A stretch of DNA of 64,000 nt, taken from Microvirga massiliensis. GTDB taxonomy: Bacteria; Pseudomonadota; Alphaproteobacteria; Rhizobiales; Beijerinckiaceae. The DNA is taken from the NCBI RefSeq assembly GCF_001006805.1, contig NZ_LN811351.1, forward strand, positions 64,883 through 128,882, in the 5' to 3' direction. A model generated the notes under the pieces. That model saw nothing but the letters and a program-made list of their open reading frames with translations. It was not told the DNA's origin and searched no databases. Position numbers and translations under genes: made by a program. Shown piece after piece: positions 32,402-49,600 of this stretch (the first letter of the stretch is position 1; each line of letters begins with the position of its first letter).

Positions 32402-32600
32402 GGACTGCTTCGCTTTTGGTTCTCAGTGACGGTGTGGTTCAGGCATCACTCCGTTTCCGGCAGTGCTCCTCGCGTTTTCACGCTCTCTTCGTCATCGTGA
32501 GCGGAGCGAAGCGATCCAGGAGCACCTCTGTCGACGGGTAGATTGCTTCGCCTTCGGCTCGCAAGGACGGCAGTGCGGAGGGAGGGGCAGTGCATCACGC
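32402..32600. repeat. Dispersed inverted-arm repeat, copy A
   Basis: This convergent gap contains three arms of a GATTGCTTCGC...CGCAATGACGG-type repeat. Arm 1 is at 32402-32432, arm 2 (reverse) at 32490-32517, and arm 3 (forward) at 32541-32570. The spacer 32452-32489 and arm 2 align directly with copy B near 39450-39510. TCGACGGGTAGATTGCTTC (32531-32549) is the exact reverse complement of 39501-39519. The end (32560-32600) matches copy C near 49559. The rest of the 334-base gap between the 52-codon gene and the SDR gene holds nothing else. Confidence 0.75.
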
Positions 32601-32674
32601 TCCCAATAATGAAATCGATGTGGCAGGAGATTTGACCTAGTCCAACACTCGTAGCCAAGGCTGTCCACGCTCGT

Positions 32675-33535
32675 CTAAATGATGGGCTTGCCTCCTGTCA
32701 CGGCGACTGTCGCACCTGAGACATAGCTTGCATCGGGATCCGCAAGCATGACGTAAACGGGGGCAAGCTCCTTAGGCTGACCCGGGCGCTTCATCGGTAC
32801 TTGCGAGCCGAACTCCTTCACCTTTTCAGGCGGCATGGTGGACGGGATCAAGGGCGTCCAGATCGGGCCCGGAGCGACGCAGTTCACGCGAATGTCCTTC
32901 TCGGCCAGCAGCTGAGCGAGTCCGCCGGTAAAGTTCTGGATCGCTCCCTTGGTGGTCGCATAGGCGAGCAGCTGCGGGCTCGGTGTATCGGCATTGACCG
33001 ATGTGGTGTTGATAATGGCGCTGCCGGGCGGCATGTGCGGCACCGTTGCCTTCGTGAGATAGAACATCGCGTGGATGTTGGTTCGGAACGTGACGTCCCA
33101 CTCCTCGTCGCTGATCTCTTCGATCGATTGGAAGGTCGCCTGGTGGGCCGCATTGTTGACCAGGACGTCGATGCGGCCGAACTCCTTGACTGCGCGATCG
33201 ACAATGGCGCGGCAGTGCGCCGGGTCCTTCAAGTCGCCTGGAGCGAGGATCGCTTTGCGACCGGCGGATTCGACGAGGCGCTGGGTCTCGCGGGCATCCT
33301 CGTCCTCATTATAGTAGCTGATCAGGACATCAGCCCCTTCGCGCGCGAAAGCCAAGGCCACTGCTCGCCCGATGCCACTGTCCGCCCCGGTAATGATGGC
33401 TTTCTTGTCAGCCAGTCGCCCGGAGCCCTTGTAGCTGTCCTCGCCGTAATCGGGCTGGGGATTCATCGCCGCACTGCTGCCGGGCATAGGCTGATGCTGC
33501 TCCGGAAACGGCGGCTTCGGAAGGTCATTGGCCAT
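32675..33535 (-). CDS. SDR-family oxidoreductase (YghA-like)
   Basis: Short-chain dehydrogenase of 286 residues with an N-terminal extension (PKPPFPEQHQPMPG) typical of the YghA/general-stress subfamily. NAD(P) site KKAIITGADSGIGRAVALAF, NNAA in VLVNNAAHQ, catalytic Ser in INTTSVNA and the Tyr-x3-Lys pair in LAYATTKGAIQNF. ATG at 33535 gives the family N-terminus. In related bacteria such genes belong to osmotic or general stress regulons, which fits the catalase nearby. Substrate unknown. Confidence 0.9.
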   Translation of the reverse strand: MANDLPKPPFPEQHQPMPGSSAAMNPQPDYGEDSYKGSGRLADKKAIITGADSGIGRAVALAFAREGADVLISYYNEDEDARETQRLVESAGRKAILAPGDLKDPAHCRAIVDRAVKEFGRIDVLVNNAAHQATFQSIEEISDEEWDVTFRTNIHAMFYLTKATVPHMPPGSAIINTTSVNADTPSPQLLAYATTKGAIQNFTGGLAQLLAEKDIRVNCVAPGPIWTPLIPSTMPPEKVKEFGSQVPMKRPGQPKELAPVYVMLADPDASYVSGATVAVTGGKPII

Positions 33536-33809
33536 GGTTTCGTTCCTTCGACGAATCGGTCGGATCGGCACGCCAGAGAGCAACGGCGCGTGATGTTTCG
33601 TGTTGGCTCAGCCAATGCCCTCAGGGCTCGGGAGGTTCCCGGGCTTGCCGCAAGTCACGCCGGAAACGAGAATTATCGAGCAGCTCCGCCAGGGTGAAGC
33701 CGCTCACGGCATCCATGAACGGTCCCTTGCGGCTACGCGCGGCAGCCGTGGCCTTTCTGAAGGCAACGATCATATTGGATCGTATCGGCAACATCCGGAG
33801 GCAACTGCT

Positions 33810-34277
33810 ATGCCGACCGTCTTTCTCGACTGCGATGGCGTGCTGGCAGACTTCGATAAAGGCGCTATCGAAGTCCTGGGGATGCATCCGCGCGAGTACG
33901 AGCGCCGGTTCGGCCCCAAGCGGTTCTGGTCCGCACTGGCGTCGACCCCGGACTTCTTCGAGATGCTCGAGCTGATGCCGGACGCGATGGAACTCTATGA
34001 AGCACTGCGTACCCTCGATCCGGTGATCCTGACCGGATTGCCGCGCGGGACTTGGGCCGAGCCGCAGAAGCGGCGTTGGGCGGCACGGCACTTTCCGGGC
34101 GTGGAGGTGATCACGACCAGCTCAGCCCTGAAGCGCGAGCACTGTTCTCCCGGAGACGCTCTGGTCGATGATCGCGACAAGTATCGCCATTTCTGGGAAC
34201 AGGCCGGGGGTGTCTTCATTCATCACCGGAGGGCAGCCGCCTCGATCGCGCAGTTGCACAGGCAAGGCTTTCTGTAA
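33810..34277 (+). CDS. HAD-family 5'-nucleotidase-like protein
   Basis: 155 residues of the HAD fold, closest in layout to cytosolic 5'(3')-deoxyribonucleotidases. Motif I is VFLDCDGVLADFD (two Asp for nucleophile and acid-base). Motif II Thr is in PVILTGLPRG. The Lys is near SSALKREHC and motif III is DALVDDRDKY. GGAGG lies ahead of the ATG at 33810; the frame opens earlier without coding signs. Substrate is not determined; a dephosphorylating housekeeping or damage-repair role is possible. Confidence 0.82.
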   Translation: MPTVFLDCDGVLADFDKGAIEVLGMHPREYERRFGPKRFWSALASTPDFFEMLELMPDAMELYEALRTLDPVILTGLPRGTWAEPQKRRWAARHFPGVEVITTSSALKREHCSPGDALVDDRDKYRHFWEQAGGVFIHHRRAAASIAQLHRQGFL

Positions 34278-34475
34278 GGCTGCGACATTGGGCAATGGCC
34301 TCACGGGCGCCGGCTGTCCGATGTGGCTCGCTGAATAGGCGCCGGGTGAACTCAGATCGCCAATTCCTTGATGCTGCGAGGCTCCTCGAGCGGACGACCG
34401 TTCTCCTTTCGCTTGATGTAATCTCGTCTGCCTGTAAGGGTGAGAAAACGCATGGTAAAGAGCCGTGGATCCTTT

Positions 34476-34501
34476 CCTGCGCGGCTCTCCAGCCGCGCAG
34501 G
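34476..34501. terminator. Hairpin downstream of the manganese catalase gene
   Basis: Perfect 11-base arms CCTGCGCGGCT and AGCCGCGCAGG with a four-base loop, 30 bases beyond the catalase stop. No U run follows on either strand, so termination or 3' stabilisation is inferred from position. The rest of the gap (34278-34530) holds only a 33-codon frame at 34352-34453 on the minus strand without a ribosome site. Confidence 0.55.
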
Positions 34502-34530
34502 ACTCTCGCAGCTCGGGAATGCTCCGTGCT

Positions 34531-35409: not shown

Positions 35410-35855
35410 CTGGCCGCTCCTCTGGGTTCGGGATACACCCAGAATCCAATGCGCCGCCCTTGCAGTGCCGAGCGGGCTCGGCACTGACCTGAAGTGGGGG
35501 CTGCATTGAAACCGGGTCGCAATATAACAATCGGCTGTGATGCCGGTTCAGTAGGTGCGGTCGTTTCTTTGAGACCGCTTGGGAGCGGAGAAACGCATGA
35601 GATCAGCCTTAGCTATTGAGAGAGCCTGCCGGGTAACTCATGACGGCCAGCTCTTTGGGCTCTCCTTCGGGAACCATCCCGGTGTATCTCCCAGCCTCTG
35701 AGGCCGGTCGCTCCGGCCGCGTCTTGCTGCCTCATCGCAGAAGAGTGAGAGGCAGATACCGTTGACGCCTTGGGTTGATTATGTCAGCGTTGCTGACCAA
35801 AATCAGAACCGGGAACCCGGCGGTCCAGGAAGCTTGAGATGAGAGGAGCCGGGCG
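35410..35855. other. Intergenic region upstream of the catalase and oxidoreductase genes
   Basis: 446 bases between divergent genes. It contains the palindrome at 35463-35486 and an imperfect hairpin GCGGTCGTTTCTTTGAGACCGC near 35556-35580. A ribosome site GAGAGGAG stands ahead of 35856. No further gene or promoter could be supported. Confidence 0.4.
35463..35486. promoter_or_regulatory. 24-bp palindrome upstream of the manganese catalase
   Basis: Perfect 11-base arms CAGTGCCGAGC and GCTCGGCACTG flank a two-base GG centre, 54-77 bases before the catalase ATG. Its length and position suit either a repressor/activator operator or an mRNA leader hairpin. No known regulator motif is recognised. 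Confidence 0.5.
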
Positions 35856-38800
35856 ATGGCGGTAGATGGCATGGCGCTCCGGGACGTCACGCTCGACGAC
35901 AAGTTCGACCTCGCCAAGGATCGGGTGTTCATCACCGGCACCCAGGCCGTAGTCAGGCTTCTGCTGATGCAGCGCGAGCGGGACCGTCTCGCCGGGCTGA
36001 ACACGGCGGGTTTCGTCTCCGGCTATCGCGGTTCGCCGATCGGCGGCCTCGATCAGAACCTGCAGCGGGCCAAGAAGTGGCTCGACGCGTCGCATATCGT
36101 CTTCCAGCCGGGCCTCAACGAGGAGCTTGCTGCGACGGCCATCTGGGGCACCCAGCAGGCCGAAATGCGGGGCGAGGGTCGCTATGACGGCGTCTTCGGG
36201 ATGTGGTACGGCAAGGGCCCCGGCGTCGATCGCTCCGGCGACGTGTTCCGCCACGCCAACATGGCCGGCACCTCGCGCTATGGCGGCGTCCTTGCGCTCA
36301 TGGGCGACGACCACACGGCCGAATCCTCGACGGTCGCTCACCAGTCCGAATTCCACTTCGTCGACGTGATGAGCCCGATCTTGAACCCGGCCGGCGTTCA
36401 GGAGATCCTCGATTACGGGCTCTACGGCTATGCGCTGAGCCGGTACTGCGGCACCTGGGTCGCGCTCAAATGCGTGAAGGAGAACATCGAGTCGACCGCC
36501 TCGGTCGACGGCTCGATCGACCGGGTGAAGATCATCATCCCGGATGACTTCGCGATGCCGCCTGGGGGGCTCAATATTCGCCGCGGCGACGGCATCCTCG
36601 AGCAGGAGGCGCGGCTCCAGGATTTCAAGCGCGACGCGATGCTCGCCTTCCTGCGCGCGAACAGCCTGAACCGGATCATTCTCTCGGGCGGCCGGCAGCC
36701 GAAGATCGGCGTGATCACTGTCGGGAAGAGCTACCTCGACGTGCGGCAGGCTCTCGACGAGCTCGGGCTCGACGAGGTCAAGGCGAATGACATGGGCTTG
36801 CGTCTTTACAAGATCGCGTGCCCATGGCCGATCTCACGACAGGAGCTCGTCGAATTCGCGCATGGCCTCGACCTGATCATCGTGGTGGAGGAGAAGCGAT
36901 CCCTCATCGAGGTGCAGGTTCGCGAAGAGCTCTACGGCACCCCGAACCAGCCGGTCTGCATCGGCAAGAAGGACGAGAACGGCGCTTGGCTCTTCCCTGT
37001 GAAAGGCGCTCTCGATCCGAACGATGTCGCGATCGCCATCGGCGAGCGCCTGCTGCGCTACCACCGCAACGACGATCTCGCGGGCCGTGTCGCGCGCCTC
37101 AAGGACGCCCAGCGCGTCCTCGCCGAAACCGGTGACGTCGCGACGCGCATCCCGCATTTCTGCTCGGGCTGCCCGCACAACACCTCGACGAAGGTTCCCG
37201 AGGGCATGCGCGCTTATGCGGGGATCGGCTGCCATTTCATGGCGCAGTGGATGGACCGGTCGACCGACGGCTTCACGCAGATGGGCGGTGAGGGCGCCAA
37301 CTGGATCGGTGAATCCAACTTCTCAAAGCGCCAGCACGTCTTCCAGAATCTCGGTGACGGCACCTACAACCATTCCGGCATTCTCGCTCTGCGCTGGGCG
37401 ATCGCGACCCGCACGAACATCACCTACAAGATTTTGTTCAACGATGCCGTCGCCATGACGGGCGGGCAGCGGCATGAAGGCGGGCTCACCGTCGACATGA
37501 TAGCGCGTCAGGTGCGCGCCGAAGGTGTCGACCGGATCGCGCTCGTCACGGACGAGCCCGATAAGTATTCCACGGCGGTGCAGTTCCCGTCCGGGATGAG
37601 CATCCATCACCGGGACGAGCTCGACAGCGTGCAGCGCGACCTCGCGCAGGCTCCCGGCGTCTCGGTCATGATCTACGATCAGACCTGCGCCTCCGAGAAG
37701 CGCCGCCGCCGCAAGCGCGGCGAGTTCCCGGATCCCGACAAGCGCGTCATCATCAACGATCTCGTCTGCGAGGCTTGCGGAGACTGCTCCGTGCAGTCGA
37801 ACTGCGTCGCTGTGCAGCCCATCGAGACGGAATTCGGTCGAAAGCGGCAGATCGACCAGTCCAACTGCAACAAGGATTTCTCCTGCGTGAAGGGCTTCTG
37901 CCCGTCCTTCGTGACGGTGCACGGAGCGAAGGTCCGGCGAGCGGTGCCCGCCACCGTCGCGACGGACGGCCTTGCGACAGGCGAGCTTCCCGAGCCGGCC
38001 ATTCCCGCGATCGACCGCACCTTCAACGTGATCGTCACGGGTGTCGGCGGCACCGGCGTCGTCACGATCGGCGCGATCCTCGGCATGGCCGCGCATCTCG
38101 AGAGCAAGGGCCTCGGGATGATCGACATGGCGGGCCTCGCGCAGAAGGGCGGGGCGGTCTACAGTCACGTGCGCCTTGCGAACAATCAGGACGACATCAA
38201 TGCGATCCGGGTGACGGCCGGTGCCGCCGATCTCGTGCTCGGCTGCGATCTCGTAGTGACCGGCACAAAGAAAGTGCTCGCTGCCGTGGACGAGGGCCGC
38301 AGCGCGCTCGTCGTCAACACCGCCGAGGTGATGCCGGGCGATTTCACGCGCAATGCGGATTTCTCCCTGCCGGCCGAGCGGATCAAGCGGGCCGTCGTGA
38401 AGGCCGCCGGGACGAATGCCGTCCACTTCGTGGACGCGACGGCCGTGGCGACGGCGCTCCTCGGCAATGCCATCGCGGCCAACATGTTCATGCTCGGCTA
38501 CGCGTATCAGAAAGGTCTCGTCCCGCTGACGGCCGCCGCGATCGAGAAGGCGATCGCGCTCAACGGAGAGGCGGTCCAGATGAATCTGGCCGCTTTCGGG
38601 TGGGGGCGTCGCACCGCGGCGGATCCGGAACTCGCCACGAAGGTGCTCGCCGGGCAGCGTGAGGCCTCCTCGTCGCGGCAGCTCTCCGAGAGCCTCGACG
38701 AGGTCATCGCACGGCGCGAAGCCTTCCTGGCCGACTACCAGGACAAGGCCTATGCCGAGCGCTATCGCGCGATGATCGAGCGCGTCCGCTCAGCCGAGAG

Positions 38801-39356
38801 AAAGTCGATGCCGGGCTCCACCACTCTGACGGAGGCTGCTGCGCGCTCGCTCTTCAAGCTCATGGCTTACAAGGACGAGTACGAGGTCGCACGCCTCTAC
38901 ACGAACGGCAATTTCGAGCGTCAGATCACTGCCACCTTCGAGGGCGAGAAGCTGCGCTACGAGTTCCATCTCGCCCCTCCGCTCCTCGCTCGCCCCGATC
39001 CCGAGACGGGATCGCCGCGGAAGATGAGCTTCGGGCCCTGGATGATGACGGCGTTCCGTATGCTCGCGCGCCTGAAAGGGCTGCGGGGAACCCCGTTCGA
39101 CGTCTTCGGCTACACCCAGGAGCGGCGCACGGAGCGTCGGCTTGTCGGCGAGTTCGAGGCGCGCCTCGAGGAGATCCTGCAGGGGCTCACCCCGGCCAAT
39201 CACGCTGTCGCAGTCGGACTCGCGGGCTTGCCGCAGAAGATCCGCGGCTACGGGCATATCAAGGAGCGAAACCTGACACTTGTCAGGAAGGAAGAGGCAG
39301 ATCTCCTGGCACGGTGGCGTGCGCCGGATCAGCCAATGCCGGTTGCAGCAGAGTAG
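35856..39356 (+). CDS. Indolepyruvate ferredoxin oxidoreductase, fused alpha/beta
   Basis: 1166-residue TPP enzyme that oxidatively decarboxylates aryl- or branched 2-oxoacids to acyl-CoA and reduces ferredoxin. The N-terminal half is the IorA-like pyrimidine and TPP-binding part (GFVSGYRGSPIGGLDQNLQR, MGGEGANWIGESNF). A cysteine-rich stretch (CEACGDCSVQSNC, then CNKDFSCVKGFC, about 640-700) is the iron-sulfur region. The gamma/IorB-like part follows (VTGVGGTGVVTIGAILGMAA). Such fused enzymes occur in aerobic alphaproteobacteria. It heads a region of CoA ligases and an uptake system that fits aryl-acid metabolism. Confidence 0.92.
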   Translation: MAVDGMALRDVTLDDKFDLAKDRVFITGTQAVVRLLLMQRERDRLAGLNTAGFVSGYRGSPIGGLDQNLQRAKKWLDASHIVFQPGLNEELAATAIWGTQQAEMRGEGRYDGVFGMWYGKGPGVDRSGDVFRHANMAGTSRYGGVLALMGDDHTAESSTVAHQSEFHFVDVMSPILNPAGVQEILDYGLYGYALSRYCGTWVALKCVKENIESTASVDGSIDRVKIIIPDDFAMPPGGLNIRRGDGILEQEARLQDFKRDAMLAFLRANSLNRIILSGGRQPKIGVITVGKSYLDVRQALDELGLDEVKANDMGLRLYKIACPWPISRQELVEFAHGLDLIIVVEEKRSLIEVQVREELYGTPNQPVCIGKKDENGAWLFPVKGALDPNDVAIAIGERLLRYHRNDDLAGRVARLKDAQRVLAETGDVATRIPHFCSGCPHNTSTKVPEGMRAYAGIGCHFMAQWMDRSTDGFTQMGGEGANWIGESNFSKRQHVFQNLGDGTYNHSGILALRWAIATRTNITYKILFNDAVAMTGGQRHEGGLTVDMIARQVRAEGVDRIALVTDEPDKYSTAVQFPSGMSIHHRDELDSVQRDLAQAPGVSVMIYDQTCASEKRRRRKRGEFPDPDKRVIINDLVCEACGDCSVQSNCVAVQPIETEFGRKRQIDQSNCNKDFSCVKGFCPSFVTVHGAKVRRAVPATVATDGLATGELPEPAIPAIDRTFNVIVTGVGGTGVVTIGAILGMAAHLESKGLGMIDMAGLAQKGGAVYSHVRLANNQDDINAIRVTAGAADLVLGCDLVVTGTKKVLAAVDEGRSALVVNTAEVMPGDFTRNADFSLPAERIKRAVVKAAGTNAVHFVDATAVATALLGNAIAANMFMLGYAYQKGLVPLTAAAIEKAIALNGEAVQMNLAAFGWGRRTAADPELATKVLAGQREASSSRQLSESLDEVIARREAFLADYQDKAYAERYRAMIERVRSAERKSMPGSTTLTEAAARSLFKLMAYKDEYEVARLYTNGNFERQITATFEGEKLRYEFHLAPPLLARPDPETGSPRKMSFGPWMMTAFRMLARLKGLRGTPFDVFGYTQERRTERRLVGEFEARLEEILQGLTPANHAVAVGLAGLPQKIRGYGHIKERNLTLVRKEEADLLARWRAPDQPMPVAAE

Positions 39357-39397
39357 CGTTCGGATCCGGGCGTCTGCCAAAATGCGCAGAAGTCTAA

Positions 39398-39519
39398 ATT
39401 GCTTCGCCTTCTCGCAATGATCGAAGTGGACCCGGCGTCAGTTCCGTTTTCGGCAGTGCACCTCGCGCCCTCAGACCCTCTTCGTCATTGCGAACGAAGT
39501 GAAGCAATCTACCCGTCGA
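39398..39519. repeat. Dispersed inverted-arm repeat, copy B
   Basis: Arm 1 ATTGCTTCGCCTTCTCGC starts at 39398. A spacer of about 60 bases follows, then the inverted arm CGTCATTGCGAACGAAGTG at 39483, ending in GAAGCAATCTACCCGTCGA (39501-39519). Spacer and second arm (about 39443-39510) align without gaps to 32452-32517 in copy A at roughly 80 percent by eye. It fills most of the convergent gap between the oxidoreductase and the MarR-GNAT gene. Confidence 0.75.
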
Positions 39520-39574
39520 AGGATGAAGCACTTCGACCGCAACTCACCATGGCTCGCGAATACTCCGCGAACTC

Positions 39575-40501
39575 TCACTCCAACTCGAGTTCCCACGTTT
39601 CACCGACGAGATCGTGGCCGAAGCTGTGGTGCTGCTCGGTGGCGATGAGGCGGAAGCCGGCTGTCTTGTAGATGTGTCGGGCCGCATGCAGGACATCGTT
39701 CGTCCAGAGCATGATCCGGCGGTATCCGGCCGCCCTTGCAAACCGGACGCATTCGTCGACTAAGTGCCGTCCAATGCCGAGCCCTCTCGCCTTGGGTTCC
39801 ACATAGAGGAGGCGGAGCTTCGCGACTTCGTCCGAAGCCTTGACGAGGATCACCGAGCCGACGATCTCCCCGTCGATCTCGGCGATCCAGCTCCGTTCCC
39901 GTTTTGGATCGAAGTCCTTGATGAAGCTCGCGGCGATCTCCGCGACGAGCGCTTCGAACCGTTCGTCCCAGTCATATTCCTGCGCATAGAGCGCCCCGTG
40001 GCGATGCACGATCCAGCCGATATCACCGGGCCGATGCGGCCGCAGCAGATAGGTGGGCGGCGCGGTCTTCGGCTCGAGGAGGCTCTCGACCGTCGCCATG
40101 GCCTCTACGAGGCGGCTCTGCTCAGCTAGGGAAAGCGGAGCGAGCAGCCCGGATACCTGCGATCTCGAGGCATCGTTCAACAGCCCAAAAGCCTCTCGTC
40201 CAGCCTGTGTCAGCGAGAGATGGCTTCGTCGGCCGTCCTCCCGTGAGCGGAGCCGCTCGATCAGCCCCCGTGTTTCGAAGCGGCGCAGGATCCGGCTGAG
40301 ATAGCCGGCATCGAGGCCGAGCGCCTGTCCGATCTCCGTAGCCGCCGGCCCATCGCGGGTCGCCAGCTCATAGAGGACCCGTGCTTCCGCCAGGGAGAAC
40401 TGGCTCCCGAGGAGACTCTCCTCGAGTGTGCCGAGGCGGCGTGTATAAAATCGCGTGAACCGCCGAACGCGTTCGACGAGGTCCTGCAGGACTCGATCCA
40501 T
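39575..40501 (-). CDS. MarR-type regulator fused to GNAT acetyltransferase
   Basis: 308 residues in two domains. Residues 1-150 form a MarR winged helix (SQFSLAEARVLYELATRDGP, AGYLSRILRRFETRGLIERL, RSREDGRRSHLSLT). Residues 155-305 form a GNAT acetyltransferase with acetyl-CoA loop YVEPKARGLGIGRHLVDECV and a typical WTNDVLHAARHIYKTAGFR end. The fusion is a known architecture. A perfect palindrome lies 22-36 bases before the start codon and is likely its own operator. Its substrate is unknown; by location it may control the ligase and transporter genes that diverge from it. Confidence 0.9.
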   Translation of the reverse strand: MDRVLQDLVERVRRFTRFYTRRLGTLEESLLGSQFSLAEARVLYELATRDGPAATEIGQALGLDAGYLSRILRRFETRGLIERLRSREDGRRSHLSLTQAGREAFGLLNDASRSQVSGLLAPLSLAEQSRLVEAMATVESLLEPKTAPPTYLLRPHRPGDIGWIVHRHGALYAQEYDWDERFEALVAEIAASFIKDFDPKRERSWIAEIDGEIVGSVILVKASDEVAKLRLLYVEPKARGLGIGRHLVDECVRFARAAGYRRIMLWTNDVLHAARHIYKTAGFRLIATEQHHSFGHDLVGETWELELE

Positions 40502-40522
40502 AGTCGGCAGACTGGACGATTG

Positions 40523-40803: not shown

Positions 40804-42786
40804 GTGACGCCCGCCGTCGCCGCACGCGAGGATACCTTTCCCAAGCTGCTCGTTCGCAACGCCCAGGTGCGCCCCGAGCGCGTCGCCTTCCGGCACAAGG
40901 ACCTTGGAATCTGGCAGTCTTGGACCTGGGGCGAGGTCCACGAAATCGTTCGCGCTTATGCGGCCGGCCTGAGCGCGATCGGGCTGAAGCGCGGGGGCAA
41001 GATCGCGATCATCGGATACAACCGGCCATACCTCTACTGGACGATGGCGGCGGCGCAATGGATCGGGGCCATACCGGTGCCCGTCTATGCGGATTCGGTC
41101 GCCGACGAGATGGCGTATGTGCTCGCGCATGCGGAAGTCACCCATGCGGCCGTCCAGGATCAGGAGCAAGTCGACAAGGTCTTGTCCGTCGCGGATCGGG
41201 TGCCCCTGCTGACGCACATCCTCTACGACGAGGAGCGTGGTCTTCGCGACTACGACCGCAGCCGGCTTCATCCGATCAGCGAGATCGTCGACGAGGGACG
41301 CAAGCGGCTTGCTGACCCAGGCGCCATCGAGGCTAGCGAGGCGGAACTCGCGCGAGGCAAGGGCGCCGATCTCGCGATCATCCTCTATACCTCGGGCACG
41401 ACCGGGCGCCCCAAGGGCGTGATGCTGAGCTACGACAACGTGATCGCCGCGGCGCGCATCGGCTGCGACTTCGACCATCTCGGCGAAAGCGACGAGATCA
41501 TTGCGTATCTGCCGATCGCCTGGGTGGGCGACCACATCTTCTCCTATGCGCAGGCCATTCTCGTCGGTCTGTGCGTGAGTTGCCCGGAAAGCCCCGATAC
41601 CGTCGTCGACGACCGGCGAGAGATCGGGACCACCTATGCGTTCGCGCCGCCGCGGGTGTTTGAGAACATGCTCACCCTCACAATGGTGCGCATGGAAGAT
41701 GCCGGCGCAATCAAGCGCCGCATGTTCCGGTTCTTCATTGATCACGCGAACCGGGTCGGCGAGGAGATCCTCAATGGCGAGGCGGGCGTCTCCGCGTGGG
41801 ATCGCTTTCTCTACCGGATTGGCGACATCCTCGTTTACGGGCCTCTGAAGAATCGCTTCGGGCTCACGAAGATCAAGGTCGGATACACCGCAGGGGAGGC
41901 GATCGGGCCCGAGATCTTCCGCTTCTACCGGGCCATCGGTGTGAACCTGAAGCAGCTCTATGGGCAGACCGAGGCTTCGGTCTACGTCACGATGCAGCCG
42001 GACGGCGAAATCCGCGCCGATACGGTCGGGCGTCCGGCGCCGGAGGTGGAGATCCGGATCGACGACAGTGGCGAGGTTCTCTACCGCTCGCCGGGCGTCT
42101 TCCTCGGCTATTTCAAGGACGAGGATAAGACTGCGGAAACGAAGACACCGGACGGATTCGTGCGCTCGGGCGATGCGGGATTCTTCGACAACAGCGGACA
42201 TCTGCGGATTATCGATCGCGCGAAGGATGTCGGGCGGCTGACGGACGGCTCGCTGTTCCCCCCGAAATATGTCGAGAACAAGCTGAAATTCTACCCGAAC
42301 ATTAAGGAGGCGGTGGCGTTCGGGGACAAGCGCGATTTCGTCACCTGCTTCATCAACATCGATCTCATCGCCGTCGGGAACTGGGCCGAGCGCAATGGCG
42401 TCACCTACGCCTCGTACCAGGAATTGGCAGGCCACCCGCTCGTCTATGACATGATCGAGCAGCATGTCGACGAGGTGAACCGATCGCTCGCGGGCGAGCC
42501 CAGGATGGGTGGCGCTCAGATCCGGCGCTTCCTGATCCTCCACAAGGAACTCGACGCGGATGACGGGGAACTGACCCGCACCCAGAAGGTCAGGCGAGGC
42601 TTCATCGCGGAACGATATGCGCCTCTGATCACGGCCCTCTACAGCAGTGCTACGGAGGCCGACATCTCGACCGAGGTGACCTTCGAGGACGGCCGCAAGG
42701 GTGTCATCGCGGCCCGCGTGAAGATCAGGGATATGAAACTCCATCCGGTCGCGGAACAAGTCGGGCTCCTGGAGGCTGCCGAGTGA
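40804..42786 (+). CDS. AMP-forming acyl-CoA ligase
   Basis: 660-residue ANL-family enzyme that activates a carboxylic acid with ATP and CoA. Visible motifs are the P-loop ILYTSGTTGRPKGVMLSYDN, the YGQTEASVYV core, FVRSGDAGFFDNSG with the ribose-binding Asp and the hinge IDRAKDV. The size and segment arrangement fit long-chain or aromatic acyl-CoA synthetases. GTG at 40804 has a good ribosome site; the frame extends to 40702 without one. Its stop overlaps the start of the next gene, the ABC ATPase, so the acid is probably imported and then activated. Confidence 0.88.
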   Translation: MTPAVAAREDTFPKLLVRNAQVRPERVAFRHKDLGIWQSWTWGEVHEIVRAYAAGLSAIGLKRGGKIAIIGYNRPYLYWTMAAAQWIGAIPVPVYADSVADEMAYVLAHAEVTHAAVQDQEQVDKVLSVADRVPLLTHILYDEERGLRDYDRSRLHPISEIVDEGRKRLADPGAIEASEAELARGKGADLAIILYTSGTTGRPKGVMLSYDNVIAAARIGCDFDHLGESDEIIAYLPIAWVGDHIFSYAQAILVGLCVSCPESPDTVVDDRREIGTTYAFAPPRVFENMLTLTMVRMEDAGAIKRRMFRFFIDHANRVGEEILNGEAGVSAWDRFLYRIGDILVYGPLKNRFGLTKIKVGYTAGEAIGPEIFRFYRAIGVNLKQLYGQTEASVYVTMQPDGEIRADTVGRPAPEVEIRIDDSGEVLYRSPGVFLGYFKDEDKTAETKTPDGFVRSGDAGFFDNSGHLRIIDRAKDVGRLTDGSLFPPKYVENKLKFYPNIKEAVAFGDKRDFVTCFINIDLIAVGNWAERNGVTYASYQELAGHPLVYDMIEQHVDEVNRSLAGEPRMGGAQIRRFLILHKELDADDGELTRTQKVRRGFIAERYAPLITALYSSATEADISTEVTFEDGRKGVIAARVKIRDMKLHPVAEQVGLLEAAE

Positions 42787-43586
42787 TGCGTGCGCCCGAT
42801 ACTCCTATCCTCACGAAGGGCGATGTGCTGCTCGCGGTCGAGAGCGTGTCTCTCGGCTTCGGCGGCGTGAAGGCGCTCACCGATGTGTCCTTCGACATCA
42901 AGAAGGGCGAGATCCGGGCGATCATCGGGCCGAACGGCGCCGGCAAGACCTCGATGCTCAACTGCATCAACGGCTTCTACCATCCGACCGATGGCCGCAT
43001 CACCTTCAAGGGCAAGACGCGCCTGAAGATGCGCCCCTCGGAAGCCGCACGAGGCGGCATCGCCCGCACCTTCCAGAACGTGGCCCTCTTCAAGGGTATG
43101 TCGACGCTGGACAACATCATGGCGGGACGCTCGCTGAAGATGACGTCCAGCTTCTTCTGGCAGCTCTTCCGGCACGGGCCGGCCATGAACGAGGAAGTCC
43201 GGCATCGCCGGGTCGTGGAGGACATCATCGACTTCCTGGAAATCCAGCACATCCGGAAGGTACCGGTCGGTAAGCTGCCCTACGGGCTGCAGAAGCGGGT
43301 GGAACTCGGGCGGGCGCTTGCCATGGAACCCGATCTGCTCCTCCTCGACGAGCCCATGGCCGGGATGAATCTCGAGGAAAAGGAGGACATGTCCCGCTTC
43401 ATCCTCGACGTGAACCAGCAATACGGCACCACCATTGCGCTCATCGAGCACGACATGGGCGTGGTGATGGACCTCTCCGATCGTGTGGTCGTGCTCGAAT
43501 ACGGACGCAAGATCGCGGACGGGAAACCCGATGACGTGAAACGCGACCAGCGTGTCATCGACGCCTATCTCGGCGTGGCGCATTGA
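42786..43586 (+). CDS. Branched-chain-type ABC transporter ATP-binding protein (LivG-like)
   Basis: 266-residue ATPase with Walker A GPNGAGKTSMLNCI, the LivG-specific long insert before the signature (SGQQ replaced by KLPYGLQKRVELGRALAM), Walker B LLLLDEPMAGMN and the H-loop IEHDMG. The ATG overlaps the ligase stop (TGATG). A GTG one codon earlier is also possible. The following permease, receptor and second ATPase complete the importer. Confidence 0.9.
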   Translation: MRAPDTPILTKGDVLLAVESVSLGFGGVKALTDVSFDIKKGEIRAIIGPNGAGKTSMLNCINGFYHPTDGRITFKGKTRLKMRPSEAARGGIARTFQNVALFKGMSTLDNIMAGRSLKMTSSFFWQLFRHGPAMNEEVRHRRVVEDIIDFLEIQHIRKVPVGKLPYGLQKRVELGRALAMEPDLLLLDEPMAGMNLEEKEDMSRFILDVNQQYGTTIALIEHDMGVVMDLSDRVVVLEYGRKIADGKPDDVKRDQRVIDAYLGVAH

Positions 43587-43597
43587 GGGAGGGACGC

Positions 43598-44692
43598 GTG
43601 GCGGAAACGGCAGCTCCGGCTCTGCGCAGGCCTGGCCTCGACTCCAAGAGGACGCGGCACCTTGCCATCGGCGGCAGCATCCTGGCGCTGATCATCGCAC
43701 TCGTGGTCGCCGTGCAGACGGGCGCGATTGCGAGCGGCAACATTATCTACAATGTCTTCGTTGATCCCTTCGTCCTGATGGTAGATGCGCCCGACCTCCT
43801 GGTGCAGACGCTCTGGGAAGGGCTCGTCTCGGGCGTGCTGTATGCGCTGATTGCGCTGGGTTTCGTGCTGATCTTCAAGGCCTCGGGCGTGTTCAATTTC
43901 GCGCAGGGAATCATGGTGGTGTTCGCCGCCCTGACTCTCGTAGGCCTGCACGAGATGGGCGTGCCGTCGCTGATCGCGCTCCTCCTCGCAGTTGGGGTGA
44001 TGTTCATCCTCGCTTTGGCCGTGGAGCGGGTGGTGCTCAGGCCGCTCGTGAATCAGCCCGATATCATCCTCTTCATGGCGACCTTCGGGCTCACCTATTT
44101 CCTGATCGGGCTCGGTGAGATCATCTTCGGGGGGAACCCGAAGCAGATGATCACCAGTGAGCTCTTCTTGCCATCGGGTGCCAGCGAGGTGGAGATCTTT
44201 GGCGGATCCGTGCGCTTCCAGCACATCGATATCGCAGCGACCGTCATCGCTTCCGTGATGATCGCAGGCCTGGCCGTGTTCTTTTCCAAAACGCGCATCG
44301 GCCGGGCACTGCGCGCCGTTGCCGACAGTCACAAGGCGGCGCTGTCGGTCGGCATCTCGCTCAACCAGATTTGGGTCATCGTCTGGTTTACGGCCGGCAT
44401 CGTGGCCCTCGTGACGGGCATCATGTGGGGCGCGCGCTCCGACGTCTCTTTCGCTCTGCAGATTATCGCACTCAAGGCCCTTCCGGTCCTGATCCTTGGC
44501 GGCTTCACCTCGATCCCGGGCGCGATCGTGGGCGGTCTCATCATCGGCATCGGCGAGAAGATCGGCGAATTCTACTGGGGACCGCTCCTGGGCGGCGGCA
44601 TCGAGACCTGGCTCGCCTATATGATCGCCCTTCTGTTCCTGCTGTTCAGGCCGCAGGGCCTGTTCGGCGAGAAGATCATCGAACGCGTGTGA
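43598..44692 (+). CDS. Branched-chain-type ABC permease (LivH-like)
   Basis: 364-residue inner-membrane permease with about eight helices and the LivH features GVLYALIALGFVLIFKASGV, FNFAQGIMVVFAALTLVG and a C-terminal FTSIPGAIVGGLIIGIGEK. The N-terminus has an unusual 60-residue lead with an extra helix (LAIGGSILALIIALVVAVQT). GTG at 43598 with GAGGGAGGG upstream is preferred over the TTG at 43583. Pairs with the LivM-like permease to form the channel. Confidence 0.9.
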   Translation: MAETAAPALRRPGLDSKRTRHLAIGGSILALIIALVVAVQTGAIASGNIIYNVFVDPFVLMVDAPDLLVQTLWEGLVSGVLYALIALGFVLIFKASGVFNFAQGIMVVFAALTLVGLHEMGVPSLIALLLAVGVMFILALAVERVVLRPLVNQPDIILFMATFGLTYFLIGLGEIIFGGNPKQMITSELFLPSGASEVEIFGGSVRFQHIDIAATVIASVMIAGLAVFFSKTRIGRALRAVADSHKAALSVGISLNQIWVIVWFTAGIVALVTGIMWGARSDVSFALQIIALKALPVLILGGFTSIPGAIVGGLIIGIGEKIGEFYWGPLLGGGIETWLAYMIALLFLLFRPQGLFGEKIIERV

Positions 44693-44700
44693 GGTAAGGC

Positions 44701-45786
44701 GTGCTCTACCGCGAGGCCGGTCAGTTCAAGTCCAACTATGCCGCCGATATGGCGGTGTTTCCCCTCCGGCAGGACCGGGTGGGGCTCGCGATCATCATCG
44801 CCGCGGCTTATGCGCTCGCCTTCCTGGGCAATGACTTCCTGCTCCAGGCGGTGATGATCCCCTTTCTGGTGTTTTCGCTGGCCTCTATCGGTCTCAATAT
44901 CCTCACCGGCTATGCGGGCCTCCTGTCCCTCGGCACTGGCGCCTTCATGGGCGTCGGCGCCTACGCCTGCTACAAGCTGACGAGCATCTTTCCCGACGTG
45001 AACGTAATCGTCTGGATTCTCGTGTCCGGGCTCTTTTCGGCGGCGGCCGGCGTGATTTTCGGCCTGCCCTCCCTGCGCATCAAGGGGTTCTACCTCGCCG
45101 TCGCGACGCTCGCGGCGCAGTTCTTCCTGCAATGGACCTTCATCCGCGTACCGTGGCTTGTGAACTACAACGTGTCCGGCGCGATCGAGGTGCCCATTCG
45201 CACGCTCTTTGGCATCCCGATCATGGGAGCGACAGCGACTTCGCAGACGCGCTACCTCGTCGTCCTCACTCTCGTGATCGTCCTCACTTGGTTCGCCTCA
45301 AACCTAGTGCATGGCCGCATTGGCCGCATGTGGATGGCGGTGCGCGACATGGATATCGCGGCCGAACTCATGGGCATCAGGCTCCTGCCCACCAAGCTCC
45401 TCGCCTTCGCGGTCTCGTCCTATTACTGCGGCGTCGCCGGAGCGCTCCTGGTGTTTCTCTGGTACGGCGGCGCCGAATACGACGTGTTCAACATCAACCA
45501 GTCCTTCTTCATCCTGTTCATGGTGATCATCGGGGGACTGGGCAGCCTCATCGGGTCGTTCTTCGGTGCTGCCCTGATCTTCATCATGCCTATCGCTCTC
45601 GGCATCGTGCTACCGGCTCTGCTCGAACCGTTCGGCATCCATATCGGGGCCGAGACCATCGAGCACCTGCGGTTCATGCTGGTGGGCGCGCTCATCATCT
45701 TCTTCCTGATCGTCGAGCCGCACGGTCTCGCGCGGCTTTGGCAGATCACCAAACAGAAGCTTCGGGTCTGGCCGTTCCCCTATTGA
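44701..45786 (+). CDS. Branched-chain-type ABC permease (LivM-like)
   Basis: 361-residue permease, GTG start, with about ten helices. LivM features are SIGLNILTGYAGLLSLGTGA, FMGVGAYACYKL and LPSLRIKGFYLAVATLAAQF, with the cytoplasmic EAA-like part RMWMAVRDMDIAAELMGI. The end shows IIGGLGSLIGSFFGAALIF. Eight bases after the LivH-like gene. Two GC hairpins (45794-45808 and 45845-45863) lie in the gap to the receptor gene. Confidence 0.9.
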   Translation: MLYREAGQFKSNYAADMAVFPLRQDRVGLAIIIAAAYALAFLGNDFLLQAVMIPFLVFSLASIGLNILTGYAGLLSLGTGAFMGVGAYACYKLTSIFPDVNVIVWILVSGLFSAAAGVIFGLPSLRIKGFYLAVATLAAQFFLQWTFIRVPWLVNYNVSGAIEVPIRTLFGIPIMGATATSQTRYLVVLTLVIVLTWFASNLVHGRIGRMWMAVRDMDIAAELMGIRLLPTKLLAFAVSSYYCGVAGALLVFLWYGGAEYDVFNINQSFFILFMVIIGGLGSLIGSFFGAALIFIMPIALGIVLPALLEPFGIHIGAETIEHLRFMLVGALIIFFLIVEPHGLARLWQITKQKLRVWPFPY

Positions 45787-45885
45787 CGGCGGATCCCGCG
45801 CCGCGGGAACGGCGCGCCAAGGAGACGTGAATTCTATCCAGAACGTCCGCCTTCCATGCGGACATCAGCAGGAGGAAAAATAAGA

Positions 45886-47208
45886 ATGTCGTTCCGAAAA
45901 CTCGGCATCGGTGCCGCGGTTGCAGCACTCATCGGAGCCACGGCGCTACCAGCCTTGGCACAGGAGACGATTTACGTCCCGCTCTTTACCTACCGCACCG
46001 GTCCCTTCGCGGGCTCGGGCATTCCAATCGCGAACGGGTTGAGCGACTATCTCGCCATGCTCAACGAGCGCGACGGCGGCATCGGCGGCGTCAAGCTCGC
46101 GATCGAGGAATGCGAGACGGGCTACGACACCAAGAAGGGCGTCGAATGCTACGAAGCCGTGAAGGGCAAGAACCCCGTCATGGTAAATCCCTGGTCCACC
46201 GGCATTACCCTGCCGCTGATCCCACGAGCTGCCGTCGACAAGATCCCGATCCTATCCATGGCCTACGGGCTCTCGGCCTCGGCTCGCGGCGACATCTTCC
46301 CATGGGTGTTCAATCCGCCGAACACCTACTGGGATGGGGCCTCAATGATCATCAAGTATATCGCGGACCAGGAGGGTGGCCTCGACAAGCTCAAAGGCAA
46401 GAAGATCGGCTACATTCATCTCGACGCGAGCTTCGGCAAGGAGCCGATCCCGCTTCTCGAGCAGCTCTCGAAGGATTTCGGCTTCGAGCTGAAGATGTAC
46501 CCGGTCGGCGCGCAGGACATGCAGAACCAGTCATCGCAATGGCTGAGCGTCCGCCGCGATAGGCCCGACTACATGATCATGTACGGTTGGGGCGCCCTCA
46601 ACAGCACGGCCATCAAGGAAGCAGTGCGCATCGGCTATCCGATGAAGAAGTTCATCTCCATCTGGTGGCCGAGCGAGGATGACGCGCGCGGTGCCGGTGA
46701 CGGCGCCAAGGGCTTCAAGACCCTCAACTGGCATGCGACCGGCACGGATTTCCCTGCCATTCAGGACATCATCAAGCACGTGGTCGACAAGGGCCATTCC
46801 AAGGTGTCGAAGGACAAGGTGGGCGAGGTTCTCTACAACCGCGGCGTCTACAACTCGATGCTGATCGCCGAGGGGATCCGCAACGCGCAGAAGCTCACCG
46901 GCAAGAAGGTGGTGACGGGCGAGGACGTGCGGCGCGGCCTCGAGTCCATCAACCTCGATGCGGCCCGCTTGAAGGAACTCGGGTTCGAGGGCTTTGCATC
47001 CCCGATCGCGCTGTCCTGCACCGATCATAACGGCCACCGTGCTGCCTTCATGCAGGAATGGGACGGTGCCAAGTGGGTGAAGATCACCGAGCCGATCGAA
47101 CCCATGACCGACCATGTCCGCGCTCAGCTCGACGCCGCAGCCAAGGATTATGCCGAGAAGAACACCGGCTGGCCCAAGCGTACGGAAGCCTGCGACAAGG
47201 CTTCGTAG
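45886..47208 (+). CDS. Branched-chain-type ABC transporter substrate-binding protein
   Basis: 440-residue periplasmic receptor of the Leu/Ile/Val type. Signal peptide (LGIGAAVAALIGATALPALA, then QETIYV). Segments LFTYRTGPFAGSGIPIANGL and VKLAIEECETGYDTKKGVEC belong to the subgroup linked to aromatic or hydrophobic acid uptake in Hyphomicrobiales, from memory. AGGAGG precedes the ATG. Which acid it binds cannot be told; flanking CoA ligases suggest an aromatic or aliphatic carboxylate rather than an amino acid. Confidence 0.9.
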   Translation: MSFRKLGIGAAVAALIGATALPALAQETIYVPLFTYRTGPFAGSGIPIANGLSDYLAMLNERDGGIGGVKLAIEECETGYDTKKGVECYEAVKGKNPVMVNPWSTGITLPLIPRAAVDKIPILSMAYGLSASARGDIFPWVFNPPNTYWDGASMIIKYIADQEGGLDKLKGKKIGYIHLDASFGKEPIPLLEQLSKDFGFELKMYPVGAQDMQNQSSQWLSVRRDRPDYMIMYGWGALNSTAIKEAVRIGYPMKKFISIWWPSEDDARGAGDGAKGFKTLNWHATGTDFPAIQDIIKHVVDKGHSKVSKDKVGEVLYNRGVYNSMLIAEGIRNAQKLTGKKVVTGEDVRRGLESINLDAARLKELGFEGFASPIALSCTDHNGHRAAFMQEWDGAKWVKITEPIEPMTDHVRAQLDAAAKDYAEKNTGWPKRTEACDKAS

Positions 47209-47261
47209 GACCTCATGGGCCGACATGAGGCAAGGCCGCAGCCTCGCCTCCATGAGCCGAA

Positions 47262-47287
47262 CCGCGGCGCACGCGCCGCGGAATTTC
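47262..47287 (+). terminator. Hairpin between receptor and second ATPase genes
   Basis: Arms CCGCGGCGC and GCGCCGCGG, nine bases with a two-base loop, followed by AATTTC. A second smaller stem (CCTCATG/CATGAGG) directly follows the receptor stop at 47212-47230. Such hairpins after receptor genes commonly reduce read-through or protect upstream mRNA, giving more receptor than permease. Confidence 0.5.
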
Positions 47288-47306
47288 GTCAGGAGATGCG
47301 AAATCC

Positions 47307-48155
47307 ATGACTGCCGCCGTGCAGACCGCGCCCGCAACCAGCGCCTCGCCTGCTGAAACGATCCTGTCGGTCAACAACATCGAGGTGATCTACGATCACG
47401 TCATTCTCGTCCTGAAGGGTGTCTCCCTGGCCGTGCCGCGCGGAGGGATCGTGGCGCTCCTCGGCGCCAACGGGGCCGGCAAGACCACGACTCTCAAGGC
47501 GATCTCGAATCTCCTGCGGGCCGAGCGCGGCGAGGTCACGAAAGGCACGATCGTATTCGACGGTGAGCGCGTCGACCGCCTGTCGCCGAACGAGCTCGTG
47601 CGCCGCGGCTGTATTCAGGTTCTCGAAGGCCGCCATTGCTTCGGCCATCTCACGATCGAAGAGAATCTTCTAACCGGTGCCTTCACGCGCCGCGACGGCA
47701 ATGCTGCGATCAAGCGGGATCTCGAGCGGATCTATGAATTTTTCCCGCGCCTGCGGCAGCGTCGCACTTCGATGGCGGGCTATACCTCCGGCGGCGAGCA
47801 GCAGATGTGCGCGATTGGACGCGCGATGATGTCCCGGCCGAAGATGATCCTGCTCGACGAGCCCTCGATGGGCCTCGCGCCGCAGATCGTCGAGGAGATC
47901 TTCGAGATCGTCAACAAGCTCAATGCGAGCGAGAATGTCTCGTTCCTGCTCGCAGAGCAGAACACCAACATGGCGCTGAAATACGCGACCTACGGCTACA
48001 TCCTCGAGACCGGCCGCGTCGTGATGGACGGGCCCGCGAAGATGCTGCGCGAGAACGAGGACGTGAAGGAATTCTATCTCGGCGTTGCGGAGGGCAACCG
48101 CCGCTCGTTCCGGGAGGTCAAGAGCTACAAGCGCCGCAAGCGCTGGCTCGCCTGA
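47307..48155 (+). CDS. Branched-chain-type ABC transporter ATP-binding protein (LivF-like)
   Basis: 282-residue ATPase with Walker A GANGAGKTTTLKAI, signature SGGEQQMCAIGRAMM, Walker B MILLDEPSMGLAPQ and H-loop replaced by LLAEQNTNMA, as in LivF proteins. It completes the five-part importer begun at 42786. An approximately 30-residue tail rich in Lys/Arg (REVKSYKRRKRWLA) is slightly longer than usual. Confidence 0.92.
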   Translation: MTAAVQTAPATSASPAETILSVNNIEVIYDHVILVLKGVSLAVPRGGIVALLGANGAGKTTTLKAISNLLRAERGEVTKGTIVFDGERVDRLSPNELVRRGCIQVLEGRHCFGHLTIEENLLTGAFTRRDGNAAIKRDLERIYEFFPRLRQRRTSMAGYTSGGEQQMCAIGRAMMSRPKMILLDEPSMGLAPQIVEEIFEIVNKLNASENVSFLLAEQNTNMALKYATYGYILETGRVVMDGPAKMLRENEDVKEFYLGVAEGNRRSFREVKSYKRRKRWLA

Positions 48156-48299
48156 TTGCGGTAACGCCGCTTTCTTCGCAGATTGCCCGAAGCGCAATAC
48201 GCCATCGAGCGGTAATCGTGTGCAGATCATGTATCTGCTGCGGGCGCGCGAATGAGATCGTCGGGTGGCGAGCGCGAATCACGAACAAGGGAGAGGTCC

Positions 48300-49532
48300 A
48301 TGCCGGAATTGTACGATGATCGCGAAAGCCATGCGCCGGAGGAGCGGGAGCGGGAGCTGTTCGGGCGCCTGCCCGAAATTCTCCGTCGCGCCATGAAGGC
48401 GCCGGCCTATGCAGGGCACCTCGCCGGAATCGATCCCGGCGCGATCACCAGCCGCGAGGCGCTCGCGACGTTGCCGATTATCCGGAAATCGGACCTGCCG
48501 AGTCTCCAGAAGGCGACGCCACCCTTTGCGGGCTTCGTTTCGGCGGCACCAGGGAGCTTTGCGCATCTCTTCACCTCGCCGGGACCGATCTACGAATCGG
48601 AAGGAACGCAGGCCGACCCCTGGCGCGCCGCCCGGGCGCTCTTTGCGGCCGGTTTCCGAGCCGGCGACGTCGTGCTGAACACCTTCAGCTATCACCTCGT
48701 CCCGGGCGGTCTCATGCTTGATTCCGGGGCACGGGCCCTCGGCTGTGCCGTGATCCCGGCCGGGCCCGGCAATACCGAGCAACAGCTCGAATTGATCGAA
48801 ATCTACCGGCCGGCGGCCTATTGCGGCACGCCCGATTTCCTCAAGATCCTCCTCGATGCCGGCGCCACGGCCGGACGGGACGTCTCGTCTCTGAAGCGGG
48901 CGGTCGTGTCCGGGGCCGCGTTCCCCCGCAGCCTGCAGGAGGAGATCGCCGACCGTGGCGTCGAGGCGATGCAGGCCTATGCGACGGCCGATCTCGGGAT
49001 CATCGCCTTTGAGACCGAGGCCCGCGACGGTATGATCGTGAACGAGGACATTATCCTGGAAGTCGTGCGGCCGGGCACCGGGGATCCGGTTCCGGACGGG
49101 GAAGTGGGAGAGGTCGTCGTGACCTCTCTCGACCCGCACCATGCCTGGATCCGCTTGGCGCTCGGTGATCTGACGGTGGTCCTCCCGGGAGTGAGCTCCT
49201 GCGGCCGTACGAACATGCGCATTCGCGGCTGGATGGGACGTGCGGACCAGACTACGAAAGTCAAGGGTATGTTCGTGCGCCCGGAGCAGGTGGCAGAGGT
49301 TGCACGCCGTCATCCCGAGTTGAAGCGGCTCCGGCTCGTCGTCTCGCGCATGGGAGAGATCGATACCATGACTCTTCGCGCGGAGGCGGAGCAGACGAGC
49401 ACGGCGCTCTCGCACGAGGTCGCCGAAACGCTGCAGACCGTCATGAAGCTGAAAGGCACGGTGGAACTCGTCCCTCCGGGAACACTGCCGAACGACGGCA
49501 AGGTGATCGCGGACGAACGCAGCCAGGGGTGA
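48300..49532 (+). CDS. PaaK-like phenylacetate-CoA ligase family protein, degenerate P-loop
   Basis: 410 residues similar to phenylacetate-CoA ligases: a PaaK-type start (RLPEILRRAMKAPAYAGHLA, IDPGAITSREALATLPIIRK) and a regular C-terminal domain (GWMGRADQTTKVKGMFVRPE, with the A10-like region absent after VIADERSQG). At the position of the ATP-binding loop SSGTTGKPT the sequence is TSPGPIYESEGT, and the usual Y-G-x-T/S-E core reads YATADLG. It may use a modified adenylation site or act without ATP. The ATG at 48300 has GGGAGAG upstream. Last gene of the uptake cluster. Confidence 0.8.
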   Translation: MPELYDDRESHAPEERERELFGRLPEILRRAMKAPAYAGHLAGIDPGAITSREALATLPIIRKSDLPSLQKATPPFAGFVSAAPGSFAHLFTSPGPIYESEGTQADPWRAARALFAAGFRAGDVVLNTFSYHLVPGGLMLDSGARALGCAVIPAGPGNTEQQLELIEIYRPAAYCGTPDFLKILLDAGATAGRDVSSLKRAVVSGAAFPRSLQEEIADRGVEAMQAYATADLGIIAFETEARDGMIVNEDIILEVVRPGTGDPVPDGEVGEVVVTSLDPHHAWIRLALGDLTVVLPGVSSCGRTNMRIRGWMGRADQTTKVKGMFVRPEQVAEVARRHPELKRLRLVVSRMGEIDTMTLRAEAEQTSTALSHEVAETLQTVMKLKGTVELVPPGTLPNDGKVIADERSQG

Positions 49533-49552
49533 GGGCTGTGCCTTTGCGCCTG

Positions 49553-49600
49553 CGGCCCGCAAGGACGGAAGTGCGGCGGTAGGGGCAGTGCATCGCGCCT
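49553..49600. repeat. Dispersed repeat, partial copy C
   Basis: CGCAAGGACGGAAGTGCGGC and the following AGGGGCAGTGCATCGCGC (49559-49595) match 32560-32600 of copy A (CGCAAGGACGGCAGTGCGGA, then AGGGGCAGTGCATCACGC) with about four differences. Only this end of the repeat is present. It lies in the convergent gap between the PaaK-like gene and the HNH gene. Confidence 0.7.

Follow-up and report, generated by a model that had tools for sequence, protein, structure and literature searches.

The three repeat copies of the window

The 64,000-nt stretch of the Microvirga massiliensis genome analyzed here (contig NZ_LN811351.1, positions 64,883–128,882; hereafter the window) contains three related copies of a dispersed inverted repeat, and the gene ends face each other around all three. 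The repeats, whose expansion is private to this species, belong to a known class of elements, the CGTC-tagged repetitive extragenic palindromic (REP) sequences. This assignment is based on the CGTC tag, the stem starting with AT, the head-to-head dimers and the CAG/CTG ends of the dimer spacers. An earlier note on this DNA had described three related copies linked by an inverted 19-base match and a direct spacer match, each lying between convergent 3' ends, and both descriptions hold. The exact 19-mer TCGACGGGTAGATTGCTTC is shared by copies 1 and 2 in inverted orientation (32531–32549, + strand, and 39501–39519, - strand; 0.01 matches expected at up to three mismatches), and a 40-nt direct match links copies 1 and 3 (32561–32600 and 49559–49598; 0 of 100 shuffles); both are far above chance. 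The 11-mer arm alone is near chance, with 42 matches at up to two mismatches compared with 32 expected, and at least 42 in 7 of 100 shuffles.

In copy 1, a single head-to-head dimer (32490–32569) is accompanied by linkers and, on its left, by a remnant unit. Copy 2 contains one intact unit and two decayed partners, and its right end (~39556) lies beyond the limit given previously, while copy 3 is a truncated fragment without any full arm. Thirty loci of the same genome (L001–L030, the first 30 of 78 exact core matches) are variants of one plan, namely unit A, spacer and inverted unit B, often followed by a linker and a second dimer. The 30 distinct dimers collected for a profile were 76–81 nt long and the 20 linkers 53–158 nt. 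For the analysis of gene context, 40 systematic 20-kb stretches and the window (864 kb in total) were used with a home-made gene caller; profile searches of this sample revealed 22 loci, and none in the reversed sequence. These loci were 77–333 nt long, plus one 43-nt fragment, and 21 of the 22 had a dimer-profile match, partial in some cases. Among the dimer spacers of this genome, the 24-nt type has CAG and the 16-nt type TAC as the tail after the unit. In a sister genus, the spacer after the terminal C of the unit begins with CAG in 32 of 38 dimers and finishes with CTG in 33 of 38.

The features of the three copies and their neighboring genes are collected in Table 1. The Rfam search at gathering scores gave no match within the window. 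A cluster of branched-chain amino acid ABC transporter and AMP-binding genes is located at 40831–48156 and resembles Aminobacter plasmid clusters (~76% identity over 29% of a 20-kb query).

Table 1. Repeat features and neighboring genes (window positions, except for the last row).
Feature	Position	Strand	Evidence or annotation
Copy 1, arm GACTGCTTCGC	32403-32413	+	
Copy 1, remnant REP unit, B-like, tag facing right	32403-32432	-	77% direct match to 32541-32570
Copy 1, inter-dimer linker	32433-32489	+	Linker profile E 2e-10
Copy 1, A1-type CGTC REP unit	32490-32516	+	Dimer profile E 1e-22; A1 consensus fold
Copy 1, arm GATCGCTTCGC	32506-32516	-	
Copy 1, 24-nt dimer spacer, type usual in this genome	32517-32540	+	26-nt spacer/B junction pattern
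Copy 1, B-type CGTC REP unit, head-to-head dimer with 32490-32516, tags outside	32541-32569	-	
Copy 1, arm GATTGCTTCGC	32541-32551	+	
Copy 1, beginning of further linker, matches copy 3	32570-32600	+	40-nt pattern
Copy 2, arm AATTGCTTCGC	39397-39407	+	
Copy 2, remnant REP unit	39397-39423	-	Pairs with 39483-39509 in predicted fold
Copy 2, linker	39424-39482	+	Linker profile E 4.5e-12
Copy 2, A2-type CGTC REP unit (the intact unit)	39483-39509	+	Exact core, 1 of 78 in genome (L020)
Copy 2, arm GATTGCTTCAC	39499-39509	-	
Copy 2, 16-nt spacer, inverted form of copy 1 spacer end	39510-39525	+	Exact 19-nt inverted match
Copy 2, decayed partner unit, right end approximate	39526-39556	-	Dimer profile to 39547, remainder by eye
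Copy 3, truncated fragment, B-type unit end and linker start (limits approximate)	49545-49611	+	Linker profile 49569-49611, E 4e-4; 40-nt match
Copy 1, left convergent neighbor	31379-32185	+	No Pfam match
Copy 1, right convergent neighbor, short-chain dehydrogenase	32675-33466	-	Pfam adh_short_C2 E 2e-60
Copy 2, left convergent neighbor, presumably indolepyruvate:ferredoxin oxidoreductase-like	35856-39356	+	Pfam POR, TPP_enzyme_C, DUF6537
Copy 2, right convergent neighbor, MarR-GNAT protein	39575-40501	-	
Copy 3, left convergent neighbor, AMP-binding enzyme	48300-49532	+	
Copy 3, right convergent neighbor	49614-50351	-	No Pfam match
Sole Y1_Tnp match of this genome (L031)	G000:C3:458525-458890		Adjoins TnpB-like frame (IS605 type, by eye)

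Spread among genomes and insertion

The genome that contains the window (9.17 Mb, 50 contigs) was searched with the strict unit pattern CGTCATTGCGAN{5,15}GAAGCAATC. It contains 170 such units; none were found in the 47 other congeneric genomes or in the backwards control. The 26-nt spacer/B junction (up to three mismatches) was found 183 times in this genome and 0 times in the other 396 genomes of the family. The expansion is private to this genome among those searched, and the suggestion of the earlier note that the repeat also spreads proved correct in that one repeat family extends genome-wide. Strict units were found in 199 of 397 family genomes and in 31 of 43 genera, this genome included, at 0 to 394 copies. 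The A2 unit, with 27 of 28 positions fixed, was present in at least 110 stretches of the genome collection; judging by their titles, those listed include Bacteroidota, Alphaproteobacteria, Helicobacter, Nitrospina and Treponema, and many are metagenome-assembled genomes. All 11 A2-bearing genomes that were checked, with isolates including Tsuneonella, Tenacibaculum and Kordia algicida, contained 4–62 strict units. Comparison of the composite with plasmids and phages gave no match.

The genes flanking copy 2 lie side by side in 4 of 47 congeners among the matches listed. The stop-to-stop gap is 218 nt here and 14, 6, 19 and 7 nt in genomes G022, G023, G030 and G044, respectively, which shows that an element was inserted between two nearly abutting convergent genes. 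For the genes flanking copy 1, no adjacent pair was found in congeners among the matches listed.

The edges of the elements were analyzed in eight genomes of the sister genus, where 38 dimers begin with CGTC and finish with GACG, with a pyrimidine just outside the tag in 91% of the 76 ends. No target duplication was found in these dimers at offsets 0–12, which fits single-strand (HUH-type) insertion. The high copy number, inverted ends and intergenic position could also be expected of a miniature inverted-repeat transposable element moved by the DDE transposase of a resident insertion sequence, but the lack of a duplication at the offsets tested in the sister-genus dimers, the edges of the M. 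massiliensis copies being decayed, makes this extremely improbable.

Convergent 3' ends and hairpin folding

It was revealed that 17 of the 22 sample loci are located in convergent, 4 in tandem and 1 in divergent gaps, compared with 125 convergent, 494 tandem and 122 divergent gaps among the 741 of the sample. The convergent enrichment is strong (binomial p 8e-10 by gap number and 3e-8 by gap bases), and 14 of 19 loci were convergent when the three window loci were left out. At the same time, the word "confined" used by the earlier note goes too far, with 5 of 22 loci elsewhere in this genome and 26 of 41 in the sister genus. Among gaps of at least 50 nt after REP removal, occupancy was 15/89 for convergent and 4/280 for tandem gaps; the median length of convergent gaps with the REP removed was 94 nt for REP-bearing and 81 nt for REP-free gaps (p 0.64). 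A looser unit search (up to three mismatches) gave 193 matches compared with 71 in the reversed sequence, most single matches being in genes, and was replaced by the profiles; its 37 gap loci were 17 convergent, 16 tandem and 4 divergent, with 107 loci in genes and 2 at edges.

In the sister genus, 40 stretches around listed units in the eight genomes contained 43 loci. Two of these lay in called genes and the others in convergent (15), tandem (23) and divergent (3) gaps; the REP-free gaps of these stretches were 40 convergent, 222 tandem and 53 divergent. Convergent loci were thus in excess (15 of 41 compared with 5.2 expected, p 9e-5), and the simple dimers of this genus, 76–100 nt long, were less confined than the M. 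massiliensis elements (15/41 and 17/22, Fisher p 0.003). Thus, the convergent bias is general but weaker in the sister genus. Such a distribution might arise if the mobilizing enzyme itself targeted convergent ends, for example, where head-on transcription exposes single-stranded or supercoiled DNA; the unequal occupancy of convergent and tandem gaps of at least 50 nt and the excess in the sister genus would both be expected. However, the target is not strict, as tandem gaps contain 23 of the 41 sister-genus loci, and we consider this explanation distinctly improbable.

The predicted fold of the consensus unit includes the CGTC tag, a 5-bp stem starting with AT, a GA/GAA internal loop, an inner stem of 2–3 bp and a three-base loop. 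In the A1-type unit, the inner stem has 2 bp and the loop is GGA; for the A2 unit, the inner stem was not predicted with DNA parameters. Among the distinct units of the systematic sample, 18 of 23 A units and 19 of 21 B units carry the exact CGTC tag. This count is partly circular, as units were picked with anchors that included the tag (up to four mismatches allowed). No pattern was used to choose this sample, though its units were located by a profile built from units picked with a G-N-A loop; such a loop is present in 21 of the 23 distinct A-type units and 16 of the 21 distinct B-type units, which speaks for folding as a single strand. In a wider set, the loop was found in 39 of 49 A and 30 of 45 B units, which is partly circular since the pattern behind L001–L030 fixes G and A. 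The free middle base of the loop was A in 52, C in 39, T in 20 and G in 13 of 124 pattern matches across the genome collection. GNA loops form very stable DNA mini-hairpins. Paired changes between the arms, proposed earlier as a check, gave a weak result: the inner pair 12–18 of the A unit is preserved as A-T or G-C in 45 of 49 units compared with a shuffle maximum of 41 in the wider set and in 23 of 23 compared with 21 in the systematic sample, while none of the remaining six A pairs or the eight B pairs exceeded every shuffle in either count.

Folding of both transcripts was predicted as well. For copy 2, the z-scores were -6.4 and -5.1, for the copy 1 dimer -2.2 and -1.9, and for copy 3 +1.0 and +1.3; when copy 1 was folded in full on the + strand, the result was not unusual (z -1.14). 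Long hairpins in either transcript, as had been claimed, can thus be assumed for copies 1 and 2 and not for copy 3. The related suggestion that the copies may act as bidirectional terminators did not find support: a hairpin followed by a T-run was present in 0 of 17 REP-bearing and 13 of 108 REP-free convergent gaps (p 0.21), and no intrinsic-terminator pattern (a GC hairpin, then a T-run) was found at the two window sites scanned. Judged from sequence, a terminator role of the repeats is unproven, and RNA effects at convergent 3' ends are possible but unproven.

These data bear on the idea that the elements are kept at convergent ends for their function, as bidirectional terminators or 3' RNA stabilizers that stop antisense read-through. 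The strong convergent bias at matched gap length and the folding of copies 1 and 2 in both transcripts would agree with it. In addition, the convergent genes at one locus are only 6–19 nt apart in congeners, so read-through would be an issue, and Br-REP1 of Bradyrhizobium lies where the 3' untranslated regions (UTRs) of convergent genes overlap and RNA is made in both directions (PMC5082802, as described in the available part of that source). On the other hand, the T-run is lacking after the hairpin in all 17 REP-bearing convergent gaps and at both window sites, the strict unit is absent from the 47 congeners, all helix positions but one pair no more than shuffles, and copy 3 is a fragment without an unusual fold. 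A functional role therefore seems rather unlikely, and a strong convergent-gap bias need not imply a terminator role.

Mobilization and comparison with known systems

Taken together, we assume with a probability of about 0.6 that the repeats are non-autonomous mobile CGTC REP hairpins that were inserted in single-stranded form by an HUH-type enzyme acting in trans and are tolerated at convergent 3' ends. The unit is a small hairpin with a CGTC tag, usually occurring as a head-to-head dimer of ~80 nt, and linkers often join dimers of this genome into composites of up to ~330 nt. Copies would be inserted as folded single-stranded DNA by an IS200/RAYT-like enzyme (RAYT, REP-associated tyrosine transposase), which may now be lost or encoded in an unassembled part of the genome. 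The convergent bias would mainly reflect tolerance. In a tandem or divergent gap, ~200 nt of hairpin array would disrupt an operon or a promoter, while the only consequence between two 3' ends would be longer 3' untranslated RNA. At such a site, transcription would reach the element from either flank, and protection or cleavage of 3' ends may result as a by-product. Under tolerance, the larger composites of M. massiliensis should be convergent more often than the short sister-genus dimers, and this was found.

Several points weigh against mobilization in trans followed by tolerance. A resident mobilizer was not found: the RAYT model NF047646 had 0 matches in this genome at E 0.001, and the only Y1_Tnp match contains two in-frame stops and has no CGTC unit (up to three mismatches) within 1.5 kb. 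Covariation within the genome is weak, with 1 of 15 helix positions beyond shuffles (1/7 in A and 0/8 in B). The empty-site comparison comes from the copy 2 locus alone, the result on target duplication comes from another genus, and no movement of the elements was observed. Moreover, tolerance and a useful function predict the same location.

The search for the enzyme was extended to relatives. REP-rich genomes (at least 50 units) numbered 46 in the family, this one included, with some incomplete assemblies; a RAYT match was found in 9 of them (all at E 1e-17 or better) and none at E 0.001 in 37. A Y1_Tnp gene of any kind was present in 11 of the 46 and in 53 of 351 other genomes (p 0.14), and 6 of 11 REP-bearing genomes from other taxa lacked a Y1_Tnp match. 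Within genera, RAYT-bearing genomes tend to contain more units (10 mixed genera, 27 RAYT genomes at E 1e-15; permutation stratified by genus, p 0.009, with kinship inside genera uncorrected); at E 1e-10, 11 genera gave p 0.010. This association is clear in genera g12 (p 0.02) and g18 (p 0.03) and not in g42, g28 and g17, and it is weaker over all mixed genera than over the first five counted. Against it, each of the four g43 genomes has a RAYT match but lacks units, and no RAYT match was found in G406 (225 units), G291 (170 units) or the M. massiliensis genome.

RAYT-like genes (NF047646, MPNHVHL motif) accompany high CGTC REP counts inside g12 and g18 (L361, L364, L365, L367, L368 and others). 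L361 (G382:C1:3105855–3106942) comprises three consecutive RAYT-like pieces, of which the first two are partial; its genome contains 271 CGTC units. Weak Y1_Tnp matches were examined at 20 loci of relatives, 18 of which also match the RAYT model, and none of these loci has CGTC units on both sides; all six such proteins that were scanned match NF047646, two of them above its cut-off. This agrees with the report of Di Nocera, De Gregorio and Rocco (2013; PMC3733652), in the available part of which no transposase is flanked by CGTC units. The Y1 gene of M. massiliensis is not flanked by them either.

In the Snuella sedimenti genome (L265, G049:C57), CGTC dimers are repeated in tandem every ~180 bp, and an IS200-type gene lies within this array, with four dimers on each side. 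This gene was rejected as a REPtron, as it appears by eye to be an ordinary IS200-type insertion with its own terminal hairpins; it was 1 of 20 loci, among 26 Y1 places. REP-bracketed genes were also considered as autonomous copies and rejected: the Pfam scan of eight frames from five of six regions (long intervals of the sixth, L254, were left out) revealed a DctM transporter, an AI-2E transporter, a Crp-type regulator and five frames without a match, and no transposase.

A broader proposal, which we regard as doubtful, is that CGTC REPs cross phyla and expand in single species by a single-strand route without a resident RAYT, that a resident RAYT raises their copy number, and that they would be parasites of the HUH transposases of other elements, with convergent ends as the niche where larger composites survive. 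The available part of PMC3733652 left the mobilizer of CGTC REPs open, proposing enzyme loss or mobilization by others, and literature searches, with sources available in part, gave no later answer to what moves CGTC REPs and, by unit sequence, nothing related as judged by titles. The M. massiliensis genome offers a clean case for this question: the 170 strict units with none in 47 congeners, one insertion site with four empty congener sites, and duplication-free dimers in the sister genus. RAYT-like genes are associated with CGTC copy number, most clearly within two genera, and this makes the question accessible to testing.

The repeats were compared with known systems as described in the available parts of the sources. 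They share with REPINs and RAYT-linked GTAG REPs (PMC3116915, PMC8266576) the inverted pair of tagged hairpins and a copy number differing between relatives, but the tag is CGTC instead of GTAG and NF047646 has no match in this genome; identity with a GTAG REP/RAYT REPtron was rejected on these grounds. Like Br-REP1 and Br-REP2 of Bradyrhizobium (PMC5082802), they are alphaproteobacterial 3' UTR repeats, Br-REP1 also lying in convergent overlap, but the consensus sequences differ. The CGTC REPs defined in PMC3733652 have a CGTC (or TGTC/CCTC) tag outside the stem, A and T at stem positions one and two, stems of 8–9 bp, loops of 4–5 (of different length in Bradyrhizobium CGTC-1), a short tail, mostly CCA, and mainly head-to-head dimers. 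Unlike these, the repeats described here have a predicted fold of 5 bp, a GA/GAA internal loop and 2–3 bp with a GNA loop of three, form dimer–linker composites and show a convergent share above that of the sister genus measured. Common to both are the CGTC tag, the AT stem start, the short tail, the head-to-head dimers, the intergenic position in convergent and unidirectional gaps and the lack of a transposase flanked by units.

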